Source: Actinomycetes bacterium (GTDB lineage: Bacteria; Actinomycetota; CALGFH01). From it: 8,450 nucleotides of DNA. Below, one piece after another: positions 1-8,450 of the stretch; the stretch's first letter is position 1, and the number at the start of each line of letters is the position of its first letter. The notes beneath the pieces are model-generated. The model was not told the DNA's origin and did not search any database. It worked only from the letters and a program-made list of their open reading frames with translations. The translations under genes were made by a program, and so were the position numbers. Where the stretch lies: positions 1 through 8,450 of the forward strand of contig JASLIH010000185.1 in assembly GCA_030152105.1 (NCBI GenBank). Direction: 5' to 3'.

Positions 1-210
1 GGGGACGACCCGGGCGGCATCATCGTGACGATCATCATCGGGATCGTCGGGGCCATCCTGGGTGGGTTCCTGGCGCAGGTGCTGTTCGGCCGCGACACCG
101 TGGATGAGTTCTTCGACATCAGCACCTGGCTGACCGCGATCATCGGGGCCATCCTGCTGCTGCTGATCTACCGCGTGGTGGCCGGGCGAGGCCGGCGCCG
201 AGCTCTCTGA
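1..210 (+). CDS. GlsB/YeaQ/YmgE-family small membrane protein, 5'-truncated
   Basis: The reading frame is open from the first base of the window and ends at TGA 208-210, so 69 residues are visible and the true start lies upstream. The visible part begins GDDPGGIIVTIIIGIVGAIL and contains two hydrophobic segments (about residues 7-29 and 44-60). Both have the GxxGA pattern of the transglycosylase-associated / GlsB-YeaQ family (IIIGIVGAILGG and TAIIGAILLLLIYR), and the protein ends in a basic tail, GRGRRRAL. Members are normally 80-95 residues with three membrane segments, so only the first segment should be missing. A GTG at 25-27 is a possible internal start, but it has no ribosome binding site and would remove the conserved GD.PGG loop, so I reject it. 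The family is associated with envelope or general stress; its molecular role is not established. It is convergent with the SMC operon. Confidence 0.8.
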   Translation, partial: GDDPGGIIVTIIIGIVGAILGGFLAQVLFGRDTVDEFFDISTWLTAIIGAILLLLIYRVVAGRGRRRAL

Positions 211-212
211 CC

Positions 213-279
213 GGCCAGCTCCCCGAGCTGGCCCAGCGATCTGGTCCGGCGGCGTGCCTCCACACCGCCGCCGGACCAG
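213..279. terminator. Two tandem hairpins between convergent genes, probable bidirectional terminator
   Basis: Hairpin 1 starts three bases after the GlsB-type stop codon: GGCCAGCTC (213-221) pairs perfectly with GAGCTGGCC (225-233) across a 3-nt loop. Hairpin 2 is a perfect 14-bp stem, CTGGTCCGGCGGCG (241-254) with CGCCGCCGGACCAG (266-279), and an 11-nt loop. Neither is followed by a real T-run; only a short TTCC follows the second. This is common for terminators in high-GC actinobacteria. The location between convergent stop codons (210 and 308) fits termination from both sides. The 97-bp gap 211-307 holds nothing else that I can see. Confidence 0.6.
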
Positions 280-307
280 TTCCATGCCGCCGCGGCGAGC
301 GGACGGG

Positions 308-3184
308 CTAGCCGCTGGCTGACAGCTCGCGCTCGGGGGCCCGCTCCTCGAGGTCGCCGACGCCGAGGCGGCTGAGGAGCCGGATCGGCGGGCTGTAGGC
401 CCGGCCCGGGTCCCGTGGCAGGAAGGCCAGCTGGAGGTCGCACCAGGAGAGGCGGAGCGACTCGGCGTTGGTCGGGGTGGCGAGCACGAACTGGACCCGG
501 TCGGCCAGGGCGTGCATCAGGCCGGCCACGTGGTCGATGTTGGTCGAGTCCAGGTGGGCGATGTGCTCGTCCATGATGAGCAGGTCGGCCGCCTCGGCCG
601 TGCCCATGGTGGCCAGCAGCAGCAGGATGGCGATGGTGGCCCGCTGCCCGCCGGAGTGGGCGGCGTCCCGGTAGGAGCGGCGGCGCTCGGTGGCCCGGTG
701 GGCGACCAGCACGTCGACCCCGTACTCCTCGGGCCGGTCGCCGGCCAGCAGGCGCAGCTCGCCCTCGGCCCCGGCCGTCTGGCAGACCCGGGCGAACTCG
801 CCGCTGAGGCGCTGGACGACCTCCCTGACCCCCTCCTCGAACCGGCGGCGGGCCGCCTCGACCCGCTCCAGCTGCTCGTCCAGCTCGTGCTTGCGCCGCT
901 CGGCGAGCTGGTTGGCCTCCTCGACGGCCTCGGCCTGGTGCTCGCGGCCGGTCACCAGCTCGGGGTCCCGGACCTCGGGCGGGAACCGCTCGTCGTCCTC
1001 GACCTGCCCGCCGAGCCAGTCGATGTCGCGCAGCACCGACTCGGTCCCGGGCAGGTCGCCGGCGTCCAGCAGGGCCCGCTGCTCGGCGGCCAGCGGCCGC
1101 CCGGCCAGCTCGGTCTCCAGCCCGGCGAGCAGCCCGTCCCGCTCGGCCAGCTCGGGCAGCCGGGCGGCCAGGCGGATCTCGGTCTCGTTCTGGCGCTGCC
1201 GAGCAAGGGCGAGCTCGGCGTTGGCCGCGCCGAGGGCGCCGTCCAGCTCGCGCAGCTCGCCGGCCAGGGCGCGCTCCTGCTCGACCAGCTGGGGCCGGTC
1301 GGCCCCGGCCCGCTCGCGCTGCCGGTCGGCCTCGTCGACCTGGCCCTGGAGGTCGCCGAGGCGGTGGACGGCGTCGAGCACGTGCATGGCCCGGTGCCAG
1401 GCTCCCCGCAGCTCGGCGGTGGCCGCGTCAATGGCGGCCAGCTCCTCGCCGAGGCGGGCCGCCTCGGCCTTGAGGCCGAAGTGGTGCAGCTCCCTGGCCC
1501 GGCGGCCCAGCACCGGCTGGGACGGGGCCTCCAGCCGGGCCATGGCGTCGCCGTAGCGCATCCCGTCCGGGGCCACCGCGGCCAGGCCCCGGCCGGCCAG
1601 CCCGTGGGCCTGGGCGGCGTCGTGCGCGGCCTGGGCATCGGCCCGCTCCAGCAGCAGGCCGGCCTCGACCGGGCCGAGCACGGCGGTGAGGGCGGCCCGG
1701 GGGTCGCCGGCCCCGCCCCTGGCGATCCCCCAGCGGTAGCCGTCCTCGACGGCCAGGGCGGTGGCCTGGCGGTAGGCGTGGGACGGCACCAGCAGGGCCC
1801 ACAGGGCGTCGCCGAGGGCGGCCTCGGCCCTGATCCGGGACGCGTCGCCGGCCGCCTCGTCGGCCAGCTCCAGGACCTCGGCCACCACCGAGGCCTGGAT
1901 CCCTTCGGCGGCCAGCCGTTCCCGGAAGGCGGTCACCTCGGCCGGCACGGGCACGCCGCCGCCGGCCAGGACGGCCATGCGGGCCTGGACGTCGGCCAGG
2001 GTGGCGCGCAGCTCCTCGCGCCTGGCCAGGACCGTGGCCAGGCTGGACTCGGCCGCCTGGACCTCGCTGGCCGCCTGCTCGCCGGTCCGCTCGCCGGCCA
2101 GGCCGGCCAGGCGGACGGCGGTGGTCTGGGCCTCCTCGGCCCTGGCCTCGGCCGCGGCCAGGCGGACCTCCAGGGCGGTCCTGGTGTCGCGGGTCCCGGC
2201 CAGGCGCTCGGCCAGCTCCCTGGCCTGGTCGGCCATGGCGGCCGCCTTCGCCTCGAGCGCCGGGGCCTGCCCGGTCAGCTCGTCCAGGTCGCGGCGGTCG
2301 GCGGCGATCCGCTCGGCCACCGCGTCGCGCTCGCCGCGGGCCGCCTCGACCCGGACGGCGACGTCGCGGTGCTCGGCCGCCGGGCGGGCCAGGTCGCGCA
2401 GCAGGTCGAGCCGCTCCCGCAGCCCGGCCCACTCCAGGTGGCGGGCCGCCTGGCCACCGAGGGCGCCGAGGCTGTCCTGCTCGGCCCTGGCCGCCTCGAC
2501 CGCCTCCAGGTAGGCGGCGCGGGCCTCGCCGGCCCGTTCCCGCTGCGCCTCGACCTCGTCCAGCAGGGCCCGCTCGCCGGTCAGCTCGAGCAGCCTGGCC
2601 AGCAGCCCGGCCGGCCGCTCGTCCATGGTCCGGTCGATCGCCCCCTGGGGCAGGGCCAGCACCTCGCGCAGGGCCCTGGTGATGCCGGTCCGGTCGAGCA
2701 GCTCGTCATAGCGCCGCGGCCCCAGCCATTCGTCCTCGGGGTGGGCGTCCAGGAACGCCTCCAGGTCGTCGGCCAGGGGCTGCTCGAAGCCCCAGCGGTG
2801 CAGGCCACCGAGGACCAGGTAGCGGCGGCTGTCGGCGGTGACCAGGCAGACCACCGTCACCCGGTCGGCGTCGCGAAGGCGCTCGTCGGCGGCCGCGAAC
2901 AGGCGCTCACCCCGGCCGGGTAGGACCGGGTTGCTGAACGTGGCCCGCAGAAAGGCCCGCTCGGCGGCCGCGCCGCCGGGGCCGCCGTCGAAGATGTAGC
3001 GGTGGGAGCTTCGCCCCGGGGCGAAGCTGGTCACCCCGAGCAGCAGCTTGATGCCGTCCAGGAAGCAGGTCTTGCCCGACCCGTTGGGCCCGGTGGCCAC
3101 GTTGATGCCGTCGATCAGCAGCGGGATCGGGTCGGGCCGCAGCGACCCCCAGTGGACCAGCTGCACTTCCTCAATCCTGGGCAT
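308..3184 (-). CDS. SMC-type ATPase of a MukB/MksB/JetC-like condensin, 958 aa
   Basis: This is the ATP-driven motor of a loop-extruding or DNA-entrapping condensin. The N-terminal head opens IEEVQLVHWGSL, like the 'L.NWG.F' start of MksB/JetC proteins, with Walker A GPNGSGKT at 32-39. Long Ala/Glu/Arg-rich heptad-like helices at about 200-405 and 560-790 form the two coiled-coil arms. Residues about 412-505 form a hinge-like domain (FRERLAAEGIQASVVAEVLE, then ALLVPSHAYRQA) of the type seen in SbcC/MksB/JetC. The C-terminal head has the signature SGGQ (844-847), Walker B LLIMDE (868-873) and D-loop AHLD (876-879). The usual switch histidine region reads LATPTNAES (901-909) with no His; TP at this site is also what I recall from JetC-like proteins. 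The ATG at 3182-3184 has GGAG seven bases upstream. The gene overlaps the KITE gene by 14 nt and is last in the operon. At 958 residues it is shorter than typical MksB/JetC (about 1100) or MukB (about 1480). The SMC assignment is firm; the exact subfamily is not. Confidence 0.88.
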   Translation of the reverse strand: MPRIEEVQLVHWGSLRPDPIPLLIDGINVATGPNGSGKTCFLDGIKLLLGVTSFAPGRSSHRYIFDGGPGGAAAERAFLRATFSNPVLPGRGERLFAAADERLRDADRVTVVCLVTADSRRYLVLGGLHRWGFEQPLADDLEAFLDAHPEDEWLGPRRYDELLDRTGITRALREVLALPQGAIDRTMDERPAGLLARLLELTGERALLDEVEAQRERAGEARAAYLEAVEAARAEQDSLGALGGQAARHLEWAGLRERLDLLRDLARPAAEHRDVAVRVEAARGERDAVAERIAADRRDLDELTGQAPALEAKAAAMADQARELAERLAGTRDTRTALEVRLAAAEARAEEAQTTAVRLAGLAGERTGEQAASEVQAAESSLATVLARREELRATLADVQARMAVLAGGGVPVPAEVTAFRERLAAEGIQASVVAEVLELADEAAGDASRIRAEAALGDALWALLVPSHAYRQATALAVEDGYRWGIARGGAGDPRAALTAVLGPVEAGLLLERADAQAAHDAAQAHGLAGRGLAAVAPDGMRYGDAMARLEAPSQPVLGRRARELHHFGLKAEAARLGEELAAIDAATAELRGAWHRAMHVLDAVHRLGDLQGQVDEADRQRERAGADRPQLVEQERALAGELRELDGALGAANAELALARQRQNETEIRLAARLPELAERDGLLAGLETELAGRPLAAEQRALLDAGDLPGTESVLRDIDWLGGQVEDDERFPPEVRDPELVTGREHQAEAVEEANQLAERRKHELDEQLERVEAARRRFEEGVREVVQRLSGEFARVCQTAGAEGELRLLAGDRPEEYGVDVLVAHRATERRRSYRDAAHSGGQRATIAILLLLATMGTAEAADLLIMDEHIAHLDSTNIDHVAGLMHALADRVQFVLATPTNAESLRLSWCDLQLAFLPRDPGRAYSPPIRLLSRLGVGDLEERAPERELSASG

Positions 3185-3740
3185 CGTCCTGCTCCACTCC
3201 GTCGAGCTCCGCGGCCCGGCGCCGCAGGTGGGCCAGCCGCTGGTGGCGGCCGACGAGGGCCCTGGCCTGGTCGGCGGCGCCCGGCTCGTCCAGTGTGTCC
3301 AGCAGCGGCCCGGCCTCGACCCGGCCCTCGCGCAGGGTCAGGTAGCCGGCCTTGGCCAGCCGCTCGAGCACGCTGGGCAGCCCGGTGCCGTTCAGCCTCG
3401 CCCCGAGCAGCTCCGCCAGGTCGTCGGGGTCGACCCACTCCTGTTCCTGCTGGGAGGCGCCCTCACCGGGGAGGAAGCGCAGGTGGAGCCAGCAGGTGGC
3501 CAGCACGGCCAGCTCGGCCGTGCCGAGGGCCAGCACCGGGTCGTGGCCCTCCAGCTCGGGCACGGGGCCGTCGAGGCGGGCCAGCCAGCGCTCGGAGGCC
3601 GGCGAGTAGACCAGCTCGCAGCCGGCCTCGCCGAGTCGCCGCCGCACCTCGTCCCGGGTCTCGGGCTCGCCCAGCTCGGGCACGTCGGCGGCGGCCACCG
3701 ACCCGACGAGCAGGACCCGGCAGAGCTCGGTCGCGTTCAG
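3171..3740 (-). CDS. KITE / DUF4194-like winged-helix subunit (MksE/JetB-like), CTG start
   Basis: The product is predicted to be 189 aa, a small dimeric winged-helix protein that binds the kleisin in MukBEF/MksBEF/JetABC-type condensins. The sequence follows the family plan: an N-terminal helical part (ELCRVLLVGS, then VRRRLGEAGCELVYSPAS, 32-49), a middle helix (LGTAELAVLATCWLHLRFL, 72-90), and a C-terminal winged helix (VDPDDLAELL, about 103-112; LPSVLERLAKAGYLTLREG, 121-139). I chose CTG 3738-3740 as the start. On the coding strand AGGAGGTGA (3753-3745) leaves 7 nt between AGGAGG and CTG, and the CTG overlaps the kleisin stop as CTGA. The next conventional start, GTG 3696-3698, has no ribosome binding site and would delete 14 residues of the first helix. 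The 3' end overlaps the SMC gene by 14 nt. Assignment rests on sequence pattern plus gene order, not on a search. Confidence 0.75.
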   Translation of the reverse strand: MNATELCRVLLVGSVAAADVPELGEPETRDEVRRRLGEAGCELVYSPASERWLARLDGPVPELEGHDPVLALGTAELAVLATCWLHLRFLPGEGASQQEQEWVDPDDLAELLGARLNGTGLPSVLERLAKAGYLTLREGRVEAGPLLDTLDEPGAADQARALVGRHQRLAHLRRRAAELDGVEQDDAQD

Positions 3741-5059
3741 GTGGTCACCTCCTGCCGGTCACCTGGCGGGTCCGGGGGGCTCAAGCCGAGCCCCCCGGTC
3801 GATCGGGGCTCGCCGGTGAGGTCGATCACGACCGGGCGCTCGGCGGCCAGCTCGACCTCGGGAGCGCGCACGCCCGTCCAGGAGATCACCCCGACCTCGT
3901 CGTGGCCGACCACCTCGAGGCGGGGACGCGGGTCGAGCTCGGCGGCCAGGCTGTTGTCGCCGGCCGGTCCCCAGCGCGACCAGGCCTCGACCACCGCGGC
4001 CATGCGGGCCGTGGCCTCGGCCCAGGTCCCGCCGACGACCCACCTGGCCAGGTCGGTTTCGCCCAGCCCGGCCAGCCAGGTGATCACGTCGGCGGCCAGC
4101 CGCACGAAGTCGGGCACGACCTCGGGCGACTCGACCGGCAGCAGGGTCGGCTCTGGCAGCGGCACCACCACCGGCTCGGGCCGGCCCAGGTGGGCGTCGA
4201 GGGCGGCCAGGGCGGCGGCGGCCCTCACCGGGGCGACCGCCGGCGGCAGCTGGAGGCGGCCGGCGACCAGGCCGGCCAGGTCCGCCGGGTCGGTTGCGGC
4301 GACCAGCTCCCGCAGCTCGGACGCCGGGGTGGCCACGGGAGCGGGGTCCGACCGCTCGCCGGGGTCGCGGGCAGGATCACCCCGGACCTCGTCGACCAGG
4401 GCGTGCAGGCGGGCGGCCACGGCCGCGGCCAGCTCCCGCTCGGCCTCGTGCCCGCCGGGTCGGGCGACCTGCCTGGCCATCTCGCCCAGGTCGGCCAGGT
4501 GGGCGGCGGCGACCTCGGCGGTGGCGGTCAGGGCGTCGTCGTCGCCCTGGTCGATCAGCCGGTGCAGCTCCGCCAGGTCGCGCTCGAGCACGGCGGTGGC
4601 GGCCACGAACGGGGCGAAGGTCGACCGCTCGTCGACCCCGGCCGCCCGGGCCAGGGCCATCGCCGCGGCCAGGACCCTGACGGCCCGCTCGGGGGCGATC
4701 GCCGGGGCGGCCAGCACGGCGCAGACGGTGGCCACCAGGTGGCCCTCGTCGGACAGGCGCCAGGCCTGGGGCCTGTCCGGCTGGCCGTAGCGGTCGACCT
4801 CGACCACCAGCCCGTCGCTGCGCAGCTCGGACAGCAGCCGGTTGGCGGTCGCCGGCTCCAGCCAGGTCAGTGCCTGCCCGGCCTCGGCCAGGGACCAGCT
4901 CGGCTCGGGCAGCCCGGCCAGCTGGCGGAGAACGGCTACCTTGAGCCGTTGGTAGGGCTGGCCCAGAAGCTCGGCGAAGGGCCCCAGCGACGGCACGGCG
5001 CGGCCGGCCGGAGGTGGGGGGGAAGGACGGTCCGAGCCCGGCCACATTGCTGCCACCAT
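3737..5059 (-). CDS. Kleisin-like winged-helix subunit (MksF/JetA-like), 440 aa
   Basis: First gene of the operon, predicted to bridge the two SMC heads and carry the KITE dimer. Residues about 28-115 look like a winged helix: LKVAVLRQLAG (39-49), a recognition-helix region ATANRLLSELRSDGLVVEV (70-88), and a wing followed by LSDEGHLVATVCAVL (102-116). A long all-helical region follows (about 122-225), rich in Ala/Leu/Glu, suitable for the four-helix contact with the SMC neck. A Pro/Asp-rich linker (about 228-245) leads to a less recognisable C-terminal half ending in a short beta-like part (LEVVGHDEVGVISW, VVIDLTGE). The length fits MukF/MksF/JetA proteins (about 440-500 aa). The ATG at 5057-5059 is followed directly by GTG and has no clear SD; an internal ATG at 5045-5047 is the alternative. 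Identification depends mainly on the N-terminal fold pattern and on the conserved kleisin-KITE-SMC gene order; the C-terminal half was not recognised. Confidence 0.65.
   Translation of the reverse strand: MVAAMWPGSDRPSPPPPAGRAVPSLGPFAELLGQPYQRLKVAVLRQLAGLPEPSWSLAEAGQALTWLEPATANRLLSELRSDGLVVEVDRYGQPDRPQAWRLSDEGHLVATVCAVLAAPAIAPERAVRVLAAAMALARAAGVDERSTFAPFVAATAVLERDLAELHRLIDQGDDDALTATAEVAAAHLADLGEMARQVARPGGHEAERELAAAVAARLHALVDEVRGDPARDPGERSDPAPVATPASELRELVAATDPADLAGLVAGRLQLPPAVAPVRAAAALAALDAHLGRPEPVVVPLPEPTLLPVESPEVVPDFVRLAADVITWLAGLGETDLARWVVGGTWAEATARMAAVVEAWSRWGPAGDNSLAAELDPRPRLEVVGHDEVGVISWTGVRAPEVELAAERPVVIDLTGEPRSTGGLGLSPPDPPGDRQEVTT
3745..3753 (-). promoter_or_regulatory. Perfect Shine-Dalgarno sequence deciding the CTG start of the KITE gene
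   Basis: The coding strand reads AGGAGGTGA, a full anti-16S match, inside the last codons of the kleisin gene (QEVTT). From the end of AGGAGG there are 7 nt to CTG 3740-3738. No ATG, GTG or TTG in the KITE frame lies at a useful distance. The GTG inside the motif itself (3748-3746) is in the kleisin frame, not the KITE frame. This implies translation initiation on CTG coupled to termination of the upstream gene. Confidence 0.7.
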
Positions 5060-5067
5060 GACTGGAG

Positions 5068-5094
5068 AACGTACCGCAACCCGCGACGGCGCAA
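5068..5094 (-). promoter_or_regulatory. Candidate leaderless promoter of the SMC operon
   Basis: On the coding strand TACGTT (5073-5068) matches the actinobacterial TANNNT -10 box and is followed by 8 nt before ATG 5059, so transcription could begin at or next to the A of the start codon. TTGCGC (5094-5089) is a possible -35 with a short 15-bp spacer. The absence of an SD before this ATG is consistent with a leaderless transcript. Short GC-rich motifs like these occur often by chance. Confidence 0.35.
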
Positions 5095-5132
5095 CCTAGG
5101 TACTGCTACCGAGCCGATGTGCCCCCGTCTGC

Positions 5133-5150
5133 GTAGCCCGTACGGGCTAC
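5133..5150. repeat. 18-bp perfect palindrome overlapping the CoA-ligase stop codon
   Basis: GTAGCCCGTACGGGCTAC is its own reverse complement over all 18 bases, and it includes the ligase TAG stop (coding-strand complement of 5147-5149). As RNA it would form a 7-bp stem with a GUAC loop; no T-run follows on either strand. It sits 74 bp before the kleisin ATG and about 40 bp upstream of the candidate -35. It could act as a weak terminator for the ligase or as a dimeric-regulator operator for the SMC operon. The rest of the 87-bp gap (5060-5146) shows only the candidate promoter. Confidence 0.5.
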
Positions 5151-6721
5151 CCGGCTGCCTGGCGGTCCCGGTCCATCAGCAGCCGGCGCAGGATCTTGCC
5201 CGAGGCCGCCTTGGGGATCTCGTCCACGAACTCGACCTGGCGGATCTTCTTGTGCGGGGCGACCCGCTCGGCCACATACGCCATCAGCTCCCCGGGGTCG
5301 ACCGGGTCGCGGGCGACCACGAACGCCTTGGGGACCTCGCCGGCCTCCTCGTCGGGGAAGCGGACCACGGCCGCGTCGGCCACCTTCGGATGGGAGAGGA
5401 GCACCGCCTCCAGCTCGGCCGGGGCCACCTGGAGCCCCTTGTACTTGATGAGCTCCTTGACCCGGTCGACGATGAACACGTAGCCCTGCTCGTCGACCAT
5501 GCCGAGGTCGCCGGTGTGCAGCCAGCCGTCCGGGTCGAGCATGGCCGCGGTCGCCTCGGGCGCGTTCAGGTAGCCCTTCATCACCTGGGGGCCGCGGACC
5601 AGCAGCTCGCCGGTCTCGCCCCGGGAGACGTCGGCCCCGGTGGCCGGGTCGACCACCCGCATCTCGGTGTTGGGCAGCGGCACCCCGACCGACCCGGGGC
5701 GCGGCCCCCCGGGCGTGTTGTAGTTGGTGGTGACCACCGGGCTGGTCTCGGTCAGCCCCCAGCCCTGGATGACCTCGCAGCCAAGGCGCTCGGAACAGGC
5801 CCGCTCCAGGCTGGCGTCCATCGGGGCGGCGCCGGAGAAGATCGACTTGAGCTCCGACAGGTCGTACTTGTCGACCAGCGGGTGCTTGGCCAGGGCGAGC
5901 ACGATCGGCGGGGCCACGTACGCCCGCGTGATGCGCTGGTCCTGGAGCAGGCGGAGGAACTCCTCGAGGTCGAACCTGGGCATGGTGACCAGGGTCGAGC
6001 CCCGGGACAGGGCCGCGCACATGAGCACGACCAGCCCGTAGATGTGGAAGAAGGGGAGCACCGCGATCAGCCGCTCGCCCTCGCCGGCGAGCAGCGCCGG
6101 CGCCCCCTGGCAGACGTTGGCGACCAGGTTGCGGTGGGTCAGCATGACCCCCTTGTTCACCCCGGTGGTGCCGCTCGAGTAGGGGAGGACGACCAGGTCG
6201 TTGGCCGGGTCGATCTCCACGGCGGGCGGGGTGTCGCCGGCGGTGAGCAGGTCGGCGAACGGGGTCGCGCCCTCGGCCTCGCCGAGCACGAACACCTCCT
6301 CGACGCCGCTGCGGTCGGCCGCCTCCAGCGCCTTGGCGAGGAACGGGGGCACGGTGAGCAGGAACCGGGCGTGCGCGTCGGTGAGCTGGCGGACGAGCTC
6401 CTCGACGGTGTAGAGCGGGCTGATGGTGGTGTTGATCCCGCCGGCGGCCGAGACGCCGTAGAAGGCGAGAGCGTACTCGGGGACGTTGGGACAGTAGATG
6501 GCGAACACGTCGCCCTTGGCGAAGCCACGGGCGGCCAGGCCGGCCGCCACCCGGCGCACGCCCCCGGCCAGCTGGCCGTAGGTCAGCGTCCGGCCGCTGG
6601 GCCCGTCGACCAGCGCCGCCTGGTCGGCCCGCTGCATGGCGTCGGCGAGCACGAACTCATGCAGCGCCACGTCGGGCACCGAAACGTCGGGATGGGGACT
6701 GAGCACGACCTCGCCGGCCAT
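5147..6721 (-). CDS. AMP-forming acyl/aryl-CoA ligase, 4-coumarate-CoA-ligase-like
   Basis: A complete 524-aa member of the ANL adenylate-forming family. It activates a carboxylic acid with ATP to an acyl-AMP, then transfers it to coenzyme A in the cytoplasm. Motifs in order: ATP-grasping loop SSGTTGVNKG (182-191), HIYG (226-229), GWGLTETSP (320-328), GELLVRG (371-377), TGD (403-405), the hinge and A8 region VDRVKELIKYKG (418-429), and the adenylation lysine in PKAASGK (K509). Box I and box II resemble plant and bacterial 4-coumarate-CoA ligases more than acetyl-CoA synthetase. The substrate cannot be read from sequence; a phenylpropanoid or medium/long-chain fatty acid is possible. All catalytic motifs are intact and the length is normal. 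The ATG at 6719-6721 has AGGAGG (6732-6727 on the coding strand) 5 nt upstream, which fixes the start. It lies on the same strand as the SMC operon but 87 bp away, and is divergent from the membrane-protein gene. Confidence 0.93.
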   Translation of the reverse strand: MAGEVVLSPHPDVSVPDVALHEFVLADAMQRADQAALVDGPSGRTLTYGQLAGGVRRVAAGLAARGFAKGDVFAIYCPNVPEYALAFYGVSAAGGINTTISPLYTVEELVRQLTDAHARFLLTVPPFLAKALEAADRSGVEEVFVLGEAEGATPFADLLTAGDTPPAVEIDPANDLVVLPYSSGTTGVNKGVMLTHRNLVANVCQGAPALLAGEGERLIAVLPFFHIYGLVVLMCAALSRGSTLVTMPRFDLEEFLRLLQDQRITRAYVAPPIVLALAKHPLVDKYDLSELKSIFSGAAPMDASLERACSERLGCEVIQGWGLTETSPVVTTNYNTPGGPRPGSVGVPLPNTEMRVVDPATGADVSRGETGELLVRGPQVMKGYLNAPEATAAMLDPDGWLHTGDLGMVDEQGYVFIVDRVKELIKYKGLQVAPAELEAVLLSHPKVADAAVVRFPDEEAGEVPKAFVVARDPVDPGELMAYVAERVAPHKKIRQVEFVDEIPKAASGKILRRLLMDRDRQAAG

Positions 6722-6742
6722 GGCTGCCTCCTGGGGCCAGGG

Positions 6743-6788
6743 TTGTCAAGCGTACGATGGAGGTCAGACTGAAGCCTCGGCTGGAGGT
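6743..6788 (+). promoter_or_regulatory. Divergent intergenic region with a candidate + promoter and RBS
   Basis: The 76-bp gap 6722-6797 separates the divergent ligase and membrane-protein genes. On the + strand TTGTCA (6743-6748, one base off TTGACA) is followed after 16 bp by CAGACT (6765-6770), a weak -10. GGAGGT (6783-6788) then lies 9 nt before GTG 6798. On the - strand TACGCT (6754-6749) could be a -10 for the ligase, but no good -35 accompanies it. The RBS is convincing; the promoter boxes are tentative. Confidence 0.35.
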
Positions 6789-6797
6789 GCCGCAAGA

Positions 6798-7355
6798 GTG
6801 TCCGACGGGTTGGACCACGGCCATCTGGATGACAGCGAACGCGAGTGGCTGCGCGCCTCCAGGCGCTCGGCCGCCCGCAAGTCCTGGCTGCTCATCGGGG
6901 TGCTCGTGGTCGCGGCCATCTTCCTGGCCTGGCTGACGGTCGACGGGCTCCCCTGGACCGACCGGGCCCCGGCCACCACCACCCCGGACCAGCAGGTCAT
7001 CGCCGACGGCGAGAAGGCTCTGGCCGACTGGGGCGAGTTCGCGGTCACCAACGACCTCAGCGACGTCAAGGAGACGTTCTGGGCCAACGGGCCGCAGTAC
7101 AAGCAGCTGGCCAAGGAGGCCAAGGAGCGCAAGGGCAAGCCGATCGGGCCGCCGCCGTACAAGATGACCATGTCCGGGGTGCAGGTGATCGCCCCGTCGA
7201 ACCGGGCCGACCAGCGGGTGCTGCGCGGCAAGGTGCAGATGACCCGGCCCGGCGAGGACCCCCAGAGCTTCAACTGGGACGTCTGGCTCCAGCTCGACCA
7301 GGCCTCGGACGGCCGCTGGCGGCTCTGGACGGTCCGGGAGACGGCCGGGCCCTGA
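6798..7355 (+). CDS. Single-pass membrane protein of unknown function, possible NTF2-like extracytoplasmic domain
   Basis: I do not recognise this 185-aa protein. The N-terminus is short, acidic and then basic (SERE...RRSAARK), followed by one strong membrane helix at about 30-48 (LLIGVLVVAAIFLAWLTV). The positive-inside rule places the remaining ~135 residues outside the membrane. That part starts with a Thr/Pro linker (APATTTPDQQ), then two helices (VIADGEKALADWGEF) and several strand-like stretches (YKMTMSGVQVIA, RVLRGKVQMT, NWDVWLQLDQ, RWRLWTVRE). Helices followed by a curved sheet suggest a cystatin/NTF2-like domain, as in many actinobacterial membrane-anchored accessory proteins; this is inference. 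I chose GTG 6798-6800 because GGAGGT lies at 6783-6788. The frame is open further upstream to an ATG at 6636, but that extension overlaps the ligase start on the other strand and looks non-coding. The stop is 3 bp from the stop of the convergent LysM gene. Confidence 0.75.
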   Translation: MSDGLDHGHLDDSEREWLRASRRSAARKSWLLIGVLVVAAIFLAWLTVDGLPWTDRAPATTTPDQQVIADGEKALADWGEFAVTNDLSDVKETFWANGPQYKQLAKEAKERKGKPIGPPPYKMTMSGVQVIAPSNRADQRVLRGKVQMTRPGEDPQSFNWDVWLQLDQASDGRWRLWTVRETAGP

Positions 7356-7358
7356 GGC

Positions 7359-8288
7359 TCAGTCGACCGGCGGGAGGGTGATCTCCTCGCCCGGGTAGAT
7401 CAGGTCGGGGTTACCCGAGCGCAGCCCGTGCCGGTTGGCCTCGACGACCCGCACCCAGTAGTCGGCCACCTCGCGGTTGGTCGGCTCGCCCGACCCGCCG
7501 CTGCGTGCCTTGGACAGGTGCGCCCGGGCGATGGCCCAGAGGTTGTCGCCGCTCGCCACCTCGTACGGCTGCCGCTCGTCCGAGCGGGTGCTCCCGCCGC
7601 CTCCGGGCTCCTTGCCGGGTTCGTTCCCAGGCCCTTGCCCGCCGCCCTGGTTGGGCCCGCCGGGCGGCTCCTGCGGGGCCCGGCTGGTGCTCGTGGTCGC
7701 CGGGTTGAACTCGTAGGCGTGGGTGGTGGTCGGCGCGGCCGTGCCCTTGCGGGTCGCCGGGGGCGCCGGCGTGGCCACGGTGGTGGGCGGCGCACCCTCG
7801 GTGGTCGTCGGCGCCTGGGCCGCGGCCGGGGCCTCGGTGGTGGTGGGCGCCGCTGTCGTGGTGGGGGCCTCGGTGGTGGTGGGCGCCGCTGTCGTGGTGG
7901 GGGCCTTGGTGGTGGTGGGGGCCCTGGTGGTGGGCGCCGCTGTAGTCGTGGGGGCCTTGGTGGTGGTGGGCTGCCCGGAGGCCGGGAGGCGGCGGGGGGC
8001 CTGATCCGCTGGTTCGGGAACATAGCGGCTGGCCGGCGGCCCGGTCGTCTCCGGGGCGGTGCTCGGAGGTGCCGTCGTCTCGCTGCCCGAGGTCGGGACC
8101 TGGTCGGCGGGATTGGGAACATACCGGCTGGCCGGCGGCTCGGTGGCCGAGCTCGGCGGGTCCTGCTGGCCCGAGGACCCGGTCGCCTGGGCGGCGGCCA
8201 CCGGCTTCCTGGCCGGCGGCCCCATCCCGCCCCCGCTGTCGGCGGCCAGGGCCGGGCCGGCCACCCCGAGCGTGGTGCCCCCGACCAT
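7359..8288 (-). CDS. Exported Thr/Pro-rich protein with C-terminal LysM domain
   Basis: Predicted cell-surface protein that binds peptidoglycan through a C-terminal LysM domain. With ATG 8286-8288 it has 309 residues. It opens with a hydrophobic stretch ending GPALA-ADS, an AxA-type signal peptidase site. Two copies of PPASRYVP(N/E)PADQ follow (51-63, 84-96), then a low-complexity stalk of APTTT-type repeats (about 107-165), a Gly/Pro linker (205-233), and LysM at about 241-307 (YEVASGDNLWAIARAHL ... LIYPGEEITLP). The LysM is the longer actinobacterial form, with an insert between its first helix (AIARAHL) and second helix (WVRVVEANRHG). The start is uncertain. The ATG has no SD and would give a signal peptide lacking a basic N-region. 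The frame stays open to 8399, and the residues just before the ATG (ADHAVAVTLATS) look like part of the same hydrophobic segment, but no ATG, GTG or TTG is found there. The upstream side is disturbed by the inverted repeat 8255-8450. Confidence 0.75.
   Translation of the reverse strand: MVGGTTLGVAGPALAADSGGGMGPPARKPVAAAQATGSSGQQDPPSSATEPPASRYVPNPADQVPTSGSETTAPPSTAPETTGPPASRYVPEPADQAPRRLPASGQPTTTKAPTTTAAPTTRAPTTTKAPTTTAAPTTTEAPTTTAAPTTTEAPAAAQAPTTTEGAPPTTVATPAPPATRKGTAAPTTTHAYEFNPATTSTSRAPQEPPGGPNQGGGQGPGNEPGKEPGGGGSTRSDERQPYEVASGDNLWAIARAHLSKARSGGSGEPTNREVADYWVRVVEANRHGLRSGNPDLIYPGEEITLPPVD
7831..7975. repeat. Coding tandem repeats for the APTTT stalk, including an exact 36-bp duplication
   Basis: Units 7831-7866 and 7867-7902 are identical 36-bp copies. 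They are followed by an 18-bp partial unit (7903-7920), a 33-bp variant (7921-7953) and a further partial unit. All are in frame with the LysM protein gene and encode APTTTEAPTTTA-like sequence. Repeats in multiples of 3 bp can expand or contract without breaking the frame, so stalk length probably varies between strains. There are no unique spacers, so this is not a CRISPR array. Confidence 0.85.
8001..8039. repeat. Imperfect direct repeat, copy A (pair with 8100-8138)
   Basis: This ~39-bp stretch is repeated at 8100-8138, sharing CATA.CGGCTGGCCGGCGG and GGGAACATA. Both copies encode PPASRYVP(N/E)PADQ in the LysM protein. The conserved RYVP core between low-complexity segments suggests an internal duplication of a short motif rather than random drift. 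Confidence 0.7.
8100..8138. repeat. Imperfect direct repeat, copy B (pair with 8001-8039)
   Basis: Second copy of the motif-coding repeat. It encodes the membrane-distal or proximal partner of the RYVP motif, depending on protein orientation, with N instead of E at the one changed core position. Confidence 0.7.
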
Positions 8289-8450
8289 CGAGGTGGCCAG
8301 GGTGACCGCGACCGCGTGGTCGGCTCCCGTCGGCGGTCCGGGCGGTCGGGTGGGCCACCCTGCCCCGGGCCCGCCCGGTGGCCGACCACGCGGTCGCGGT
8401 CACCCAGGCCACCACGATGGTCGGGGGCACCACGCTCGGGGTGGCCGGCC
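8255..8450. repeat. Large inverted repeat at the window edge (70-bp arms, 68/70 matched)
   Basis: Position i pairs with 16705-i: arm 8255-8324 is the reverse complement of 8381-8450 except for A/A mismatches at 8291/8414 and 8299/8406. The arms flank a 56-bp spacer (8325-8380) that still pairs in patches, for example 8338-8343 with 8362-8367. The right arm reaches the last base, so the true length is unknown. The left arm is the signal-peptide-coding start of the LysM gene; the right arm is the same sequence pointing the other way. It is either a fold-back assembly or library chimera or a real inverted duplication. Confidence 0.9.
8378..8450 (+). CDS. Possible start of a divergent gene with a LysM-protein-like signal peptide (partial)
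   Basis: In the right arm of the inverted repeat, GTG 8378-8380 opens a frame reading MADHAVAVTQATTMVGGTTL and continuing off the window. It differs from the equivalent part of the LysM protein only by Leu to Gln and Ser to Thr. If the repeat is real, this would be the start of a divergently transcribed paralogue; if it is a chimera, it is not a gene. No ribosome binding site is visible. Confidence 0.2.
   Translation, partial: MADHAVAVTQATTMVGGTTLGVAG

Follow-up and report, generated by a model that had tools for sequence, protein, structure and literature searches.

A nuclease-free kleisin–KITE–SMC operon of an Actinomycetes bacterium as a candidate accessory condensin of a separate lineage

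Introduction

Does an operon that resembles the core of a Wadjet or MksBEF system, and has no nuclease gene beside it, serve defence or the organisation of the chromosome? The question is raised by a stretch of 8,450 nucleotides (the window) from a soil-dwelling Actinomycetes bacterium (GenBank assembly GCA_030152105.1, contig JASLIH010000185.1, positions 1 to 8,450), in which three minus-strand genes at 308–5059 encode a kleisin-like protein, a KITE-like protein and an SMC ATPase. A first-pass annotation had offered two readings, a chromosome organiser akin to MksBEF and a Wadjet variant whose effector is unlinked or different. Our analysis favours a predicted nuclease-free accessory condensin and keeps the Wadjet variant as a lesser rival. 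We consider it probable that the operon encodes an accessory, MukBEF/Wadjet-like loop extruder without a nuclease, which forms a separate lineage and probably acts on the chromosome. Three-gene condensins that lack a nuclease (MksBEF) are already known, and the new part is the distinct lineage rather than the missing nuclease. A literature search found no paper on the family, with preprints and most subscription journals beyond its scope.

Results

Architecture and conservation of the operon

The genes for the kleisin-like subunit (440 aa, 3737–5059), the KITE-like winged-helix subunit (189 aa, 3171–3740) and the SMC ATPase (958 aa, ATG start, 308–3184) are all on the minus strand, and the tight coupling, coordinates, order, strand and sizes read in the first pass were all borne out. 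The kleisin stop codon and the KITE start overlap by 4 nt, and the KITE and SMC genes by 14 nt. The KITE-like protein reaches 189 aa only with a CTG start at 3740, which is preceded by a GGAGGTG motif; the alternative start is GTG at 3698. The block occurs in the same gene order in all three related genomes (G001–G003, loci L001, L005 and L006, of which L006 is the G003 copy), where L001 is the contig of an uncultured actinobacterium and G002 and G003 were matched within a set of 198 genomes. The KITE start codon is also CTG in L001 and is GTG at the equivalent place in L005 and L006, and in each case it immediately precedes a conserved NATELCRVLLVGS (NADELCRVLLVGS in L006). The ratio of nonsynonymous to synonymous substitution rates for the operon genes is 0.15–0.37 between the window and L001 and L005, which indicates purifying selection. 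Against the distant L006, whose proteins are ~59% (SMC), 59% (KITE) and 50% (kleisin) identical to those of the window, the ratio is 0.62–0.77 in a comparison with high divergence and GC-biased codons.

The SMC subunit and its place among related ATPases

The SMC protein carries a Walker A motif, GPNGSGKT (residues 32–39, 3068–3091), an ABC signature, SGGQR (residues 844–848, 641–655), and a Walker B motif, LLIMDE (residues 868–873, 566–583), which continues into HIAHLD to give the pattern DEHxAxLD. All three motifs are present in the SMCs of the window, L001, L005, L006 and eight further family members (P0192–P0199); most of these proteins have DEHxAxLD at Walker B, while P0199 has DEVAASLD instead. 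The middle region (approximately residues 415–570, 1475–1942) is probably a hinge, and none of the 12 family SMCs contains a CxxC zinc hook. This region is weakly similar to MukB (hhalign E 0.0018, probability 15%) and JetC (E 0.018), the value against canonical SMC being E 0.43, and the Pfam MukB_hinge model matches it below the cut-off in both L006 (E 7.7e-4) and the window (E 0.041). A Catalase_C match to the same region (E 0.0066) was below the cut-off and was not used.

Judged by sequence, the good model matches of the SMC are confined to generic SMC/ATPase models. Pfam SMC_N matches at 54.1 bits (cut-off 40), whereas NCBIfam SMC_prok_B reaches 66.7 bits, far under its cut-off of 567. The PADLOC mad3 model matches best in the C-terminal head (E 9.3e-20) and the JetC1 model matches best over residues 280–476 only, which span coiled coil and part of the middle region (E 3.3e-13). 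The head also weakly matches RecF and Rad50 models. When the SMC profile was compared with solved structures, 29 sequences were recovered at E ≤ 0.01, including canonical SMC, SMC1, SMC3, SMC5 and Rad50 heads, and no MukB or JetC chain was among them.

A maximum-likelihood tree built on 334 columns of concatenated SMC heads from 25 proteins, with thin sampling and long branches, places the family in a single clade with a support of 100. MukB, six JetCs encoded beside DUF4194 genes, a TIGR02680 SMC (type II) and a type III SMC form a clade with a support of 93 that excludes the family; we take the six JetCs to be type I-like Wadjet proteins. Relations within the MukB and Wadjet clade are partly weak (26–46), canonical SMC, SbcC and RecN branch at the opposite end of the tree (98–100), and a 23-taxon version agrees. 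When rooted on RecN, the tree makes the family sister to the Muk and Wadjet proteins together. These thinly sampled trees thus support the separate clade that had been guessed from the divergence of the subunits.

The kleisin-like and KITE-like subunits

The kleisin and KITE lineages have no model of their own in Pfam, NCBIfam or PADLOC: neither protein matched any family above the cut-off or at E < 0.05, and PADLOC gave no match to either at E ≤ 10. The AlphaFold2 model of the kleisin weakly resembles the N-terminal region of MukF across two domains, a winged helix and a helical bundle (residues ~26–228), which are followed by a linker, a conserved Pro-rich segment (~294–317) and a possible C-terminal winged helix assigned with low confidence (~346–398). 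The KITE label was assigned on the basis of gene position, protein length and a weak match of fold. The first pass had called the middle protein DUF4194-like, a claim that the sequence does not bear out, as Pfam gives this protein no match to any family, DUF4194 included, at E ≤ 10. A sequence search of the PDB returned nothing for the KITE-like protein and four matches at E 0.18 or worse for the kleisin, which were judged to be chance. Pfam rows for the kleisin (Lant_dehydr_C, E 0.051; HTH_IclR, E 0.1; Talin_IBS2B, E 0.16) and NCBIfam FadR rows for the KITE-like protein (E 0.2 and 0.26) were below cut-off and were not used.

Comparison with known condensins and the MksBEF alternative

The operon shares the F-E-B gene order and overlapping genes of Escherichia coli MukBEF, and both its kleisin model and the middle region of its SMC are weakly Muk-like. 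It differs from MukBEF in the length of the SMC (958 aa versus 1486 aa in MukB), in the Walker B/D-loop sequence (DEHxAxLD versus DEAARLD in MukB) and in its coexistence with Smc-ScpAB in the related genomes. The Wadjet systems JetABC(D) of types I–III likewise share the kleisin–KITE–SMC order, and their heads fall within its sister clade when RecN is taken as the root, whereas no JetA or JetB model matches the proteins studied here. Smc-ScpAB is set apart by the low SMC_prok_B score. A 'hinge-less' SMC cluster of oceanic actinobacteria is reported to lie near actinobacterial Smc and to lack a hinge, and it was not found alongside a regular SMC (PMC12153180). That cluster is also a divergent SMC clade of uncultured actinobacteria, but its description sets it apart from the present family, in which a hinge-like region is likely and a canonical SMC coexists.

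A further close counterpart is MksBEF without MksG, which also has three genes, lacks a nuclease and is accessory to Smc-ScpAB. The operon could therefore be a true MksBEF, that is, a Wadjet minus JetD, that has evolved fast; this would entail the same mechanism and another descent, so that its odds overlap with those of the separate lineage, and as an account of descent we regard it as possible though doubtful. The weakly MukB-like junction of hinge and coil is consistent with it, as are four actinobacterial DUF4194-type kleisin–KITE–SMC sets (L068, L070, L071 and L073) in which no JetD was picked directly downstream, most of their flanking genes being outside the scan. The gene directly downstream is a Mutator transposase in L070 and has no Pfam match in L073. 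Against a fast-evolving MksBEF stand the exclusion of the family from the clade in which MukB joins the Wadjet SMCs (type I-like, II and III), the different Walker B and D-loop, the missing DUF4194 match, and a kleisin without similarity to the proteins that adjoin DUF4194 genes in the JetA position.

Distribution of the family

A protein search with the kleisin scored 7991 candidates, 457 of which are homologues at E ≤ 0.001; the 120 matches listed are 80–99% identical, and some are labelled as Actinomycetota or Actinomycetes metagenome-assembled genomes (MAGs). A divergent kleisin query found 314 homologues among 7996 candidates, many of them ~50% identical. In the genome censuses, whose counts are lower bounds with 2–4 candidates scored per genome and one phylum sampled, the kleisin profile and the SMC profile (E ≤ 1e-25) each detected 3 of 396 genomes, and an SMC query from Miltoncostaea oceani (E ≤ 1e-16) detected 3 of 236; each time these were G001–G003. 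The KITE profile matched 12 of 396 genomes, and the nine beyond G001–G003, at E 6e-4 to 9e-3, were taken as chance.

A tblastn search over 72,556 plasmids gave two matches, to M. oceani and Variovorax. The 815-kb megaplasmid of M. oceani encodes, with the gene order retained and each gene overlapping the next, a kleisin (374 aa), a KITE (182 aa) and an SMC (718 aa), and its kleisin matches the window family profile (E 9e-8, probability 94%). The M. oceani SMC recovered nine proteins including itself, of 604–976 aa, and on sequence grounds a wider SMC family exists that is sparse and carries DEHxAxLD at Walker B. On the plasmid of Variovorax sp. WDL1 (L047, 7395–9470), a broken family member lies between IS66 and IS1071 elements, with a 487-aa N-terminal SMC fragment before IS1071 and, ahead of it, a KITE-like open frame that matches the window family at E 1.7e-4 (probability 50%). 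This copy shows that the family extends beyond Actinomycetota. Among viral contigs, searches with the kleisin and SMC profiles yielded no confirmed relative, and two SMC queries had no match in phage records; a viral or phage origin was rejected on these grounds.

The nuclease question and the defence alternative

The absence of an adjacent nuclease, as first reported, was confirmed in the window, whose neighbouring genes are not JetD, and extends to the locus in all three relatives, down to 50–60% identity. The Pfam JetD_C model, which as a positive control detects JetD beside JetC in L069 and L072, has no match on the M. oceani plasmid or anywhere in G001 and G002. Recent local loss of jetD, which a jetD gene inside the operon of close relatives would have implied, is rejected for the clade, because JetD is absent both from the relatives' loci and from the distant plasmid. 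G003 has two JetD_C matches, one over and one below the cut-off, both on contigs other than that of the operon. Each adjoins its own Wadjet genes: a type III set of four genes with JetA3 and JetD3 as the outer ones (L032, G003:C160, 8186–15836), and type II genes for JetB2, a TIGR02680 SMC and JetD2 (L033, G003:C117, 187–7140). A strong match to canonical SMC is found in all three related genomes, full-length in G002 and G003 and as a 592-aa frame in G001, and ScpA is likewise present in all three; both are on other contigs. G003 thus encodes SMC proteins of at least four kinds, those of type II and type III Wadjet, of the nuclease-free operon and of the canonical system.

These data bear on the proposal that the operon is a Wadjet-like defence system directed against plasmids or phages, with an unlinked or different nuclease as its effector or with none. 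JetABCD is a defence system according to one study (PMC10586767), the SMC is partly similar to the PADLOC JetC1 and mad3 models, G003 carries JetD2 and JetD3 genes elsewhere, and a distant copy is found on a megaplasmid. However, G001 and G002 lack a JetD_C match (as MAGs, the related genomes may be incomplete), and the JetDs of G003 stand beside other Wadjet genes; for these two reasons a nuclease-free condensin is favoured. The flanks common to the window, L001 and L005 and the hundreds of homologues, 80–99% identical among the matches listed, are also unlike a mobile defence island, and the SMC queries met no phage record. We therefore regard a defence role as unlikely.

Flanking genes

The first pass had the operon end at 308 with hairpins and a convergent gene; one hairpin and the gene were found. 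The hairpin is a GC-rich element of 39 nt on the minus strand (241–279), 3′ of the SMC stop codon and without a T run, that may mark the transcript end; the 76-nt stretch around it folds with a z score of −5.24, matched by 0 of 200 shuffles. The convergent gene, at 1–210, is Transgly_assoc-like, as identified through its L001 homologue. The upstream neighbour was correctly read as a CoA ligase and is an AMP-binding/CoA ligase gene at 5147–6721 (Pfam). The CoA ligase, a 185-aa-type protein and Transgly_assoc flank the operon in the window, L001 and L005, and the flanks of L006 differ. Three genes upstream of the operon, at 7359–8288 of the window, lies a gene whose Thr/Pro-rich product matches LysM in part, close to the C-terminus (Pfam E 2.1e-4).

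Neighbours with a Pfam match comprise CoA ligase, MscS-type channel, sigma factor, TetR, transglycosylase-associated, DUF3472, MFS, glycosyltransferase, Flp pilus and dynamin-like proteins. A novel nuclease next door was rejected for these Pfam-matched genes of the scanned subset, which have other identities. Pfam gave no match for the 185-aa (L001) and 182-aa (L005) proteins beside the CoA ligase or for any of the six M. oceani neighbours scanned, and an effector may be among such genes.

A codirectional pair of dynamin-like GTPase genes lies 1.1–2.1 kb downstream of the SMC gene in all three relatives (L001, 9312–12708; L005, 11707–15127, named through homology to the L001 pair; L006, 1395–5221), with different intervening genes; in the window the pair would lie past the left edge. 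Of 236 genomes sampled from the phylum, 43 carry a homologue of the dynamin genes, versus 3 of 236 of a like sample for the family SMC, so the linkage may be plain synteny, and the pair was rejected as a functional partner.

Discussion

We propose that the three gene products form one accessory SMC complex, in which two SMC subunits would dimerise via a hinge and a MukF-like kleisin, carrying the putative KITE, would link their ATPase heads. If the complex works like MukBEF, MksBEF and JetABC, its heads may bind and hydrolyse ATP to drive DNA loop extrusion or compaction. Because JetD is lacking, we expect it to arrange or tether DNA without cleaving it, and it would operate beside canonical Smc-ScpAB, probably on the chromosome. 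The chromosomal role is favoured because of the flanks shared by the window, L001 and L005, the many close homologues and the precedent of Pseudomonas aeruginosa MksBEF (PMC10586767).

Several observations weigh against this proposal. Neither the kleisin nor the KITE model has a Foldseek match at E ≤ 0.001, the MukF rows for the kleisin model tie in Z score with single winged-helix proteins, and the KITE model is poor, with a mean predicted local distance difference test score of 48.5. In hhalign comparisons the kleisin resembled neither MukF nor the proteins at the JetA position, the KITE-like protein resembled neither MukE nor its M. oceani counterpart, and its match to six DUF4194-region proteins (JetB) was weak (E 0.011, probability 4%). 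Of its flanking genes, L006 has only the dynamin pair in common with the other loci, and the distant M. oceani copy is on a megaplasmid. Corynebacterium glutamicum MksB, moreover, affects plasmids and not chromosome organisation (PMC10123090).

It is highly improbable that the operon encodes no kleisin complex but a repair ATPase of the SMC/Rad50 kind together with two regulators of the winged-helix type. In favour of this reading, winged helices are generic, both fold-match lists consist in large part of MarR-type and similar regulators, and the head weakly matches RecF and Rad50 models. Against it, there is no CxxC hook, the kleisin model is weakly MukF-like over two domains, the gene order is that of mukFEB, and SbcC and RecN are distant from the family in the head tree.

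For the accessory condensin that we favour, a deep origin can be suggested tentatively, on balance with less confidence than its function: the family may be an ancestrally nuclease-free Muk/Jet-type lineage that is sister to MukBEF and the Wadjets together. If so, the JetD nuclease would have joined a loop extruder in the Wadjet line, as opposed to every nuclease-free form having arisen by loss from a defence system. The order in which Smc-ScpAB, Wadjet, MksBEF and MukBEF evolved is unsettled, and a nuclease-free branch outside all of these would provide an outgroup. With SMCs of 604–976 aa, and hence probably shorter arms than canonical Smc, the family may also offer small complexes in which the effects of arm length and kleisin type on loop extrusion could be studied.
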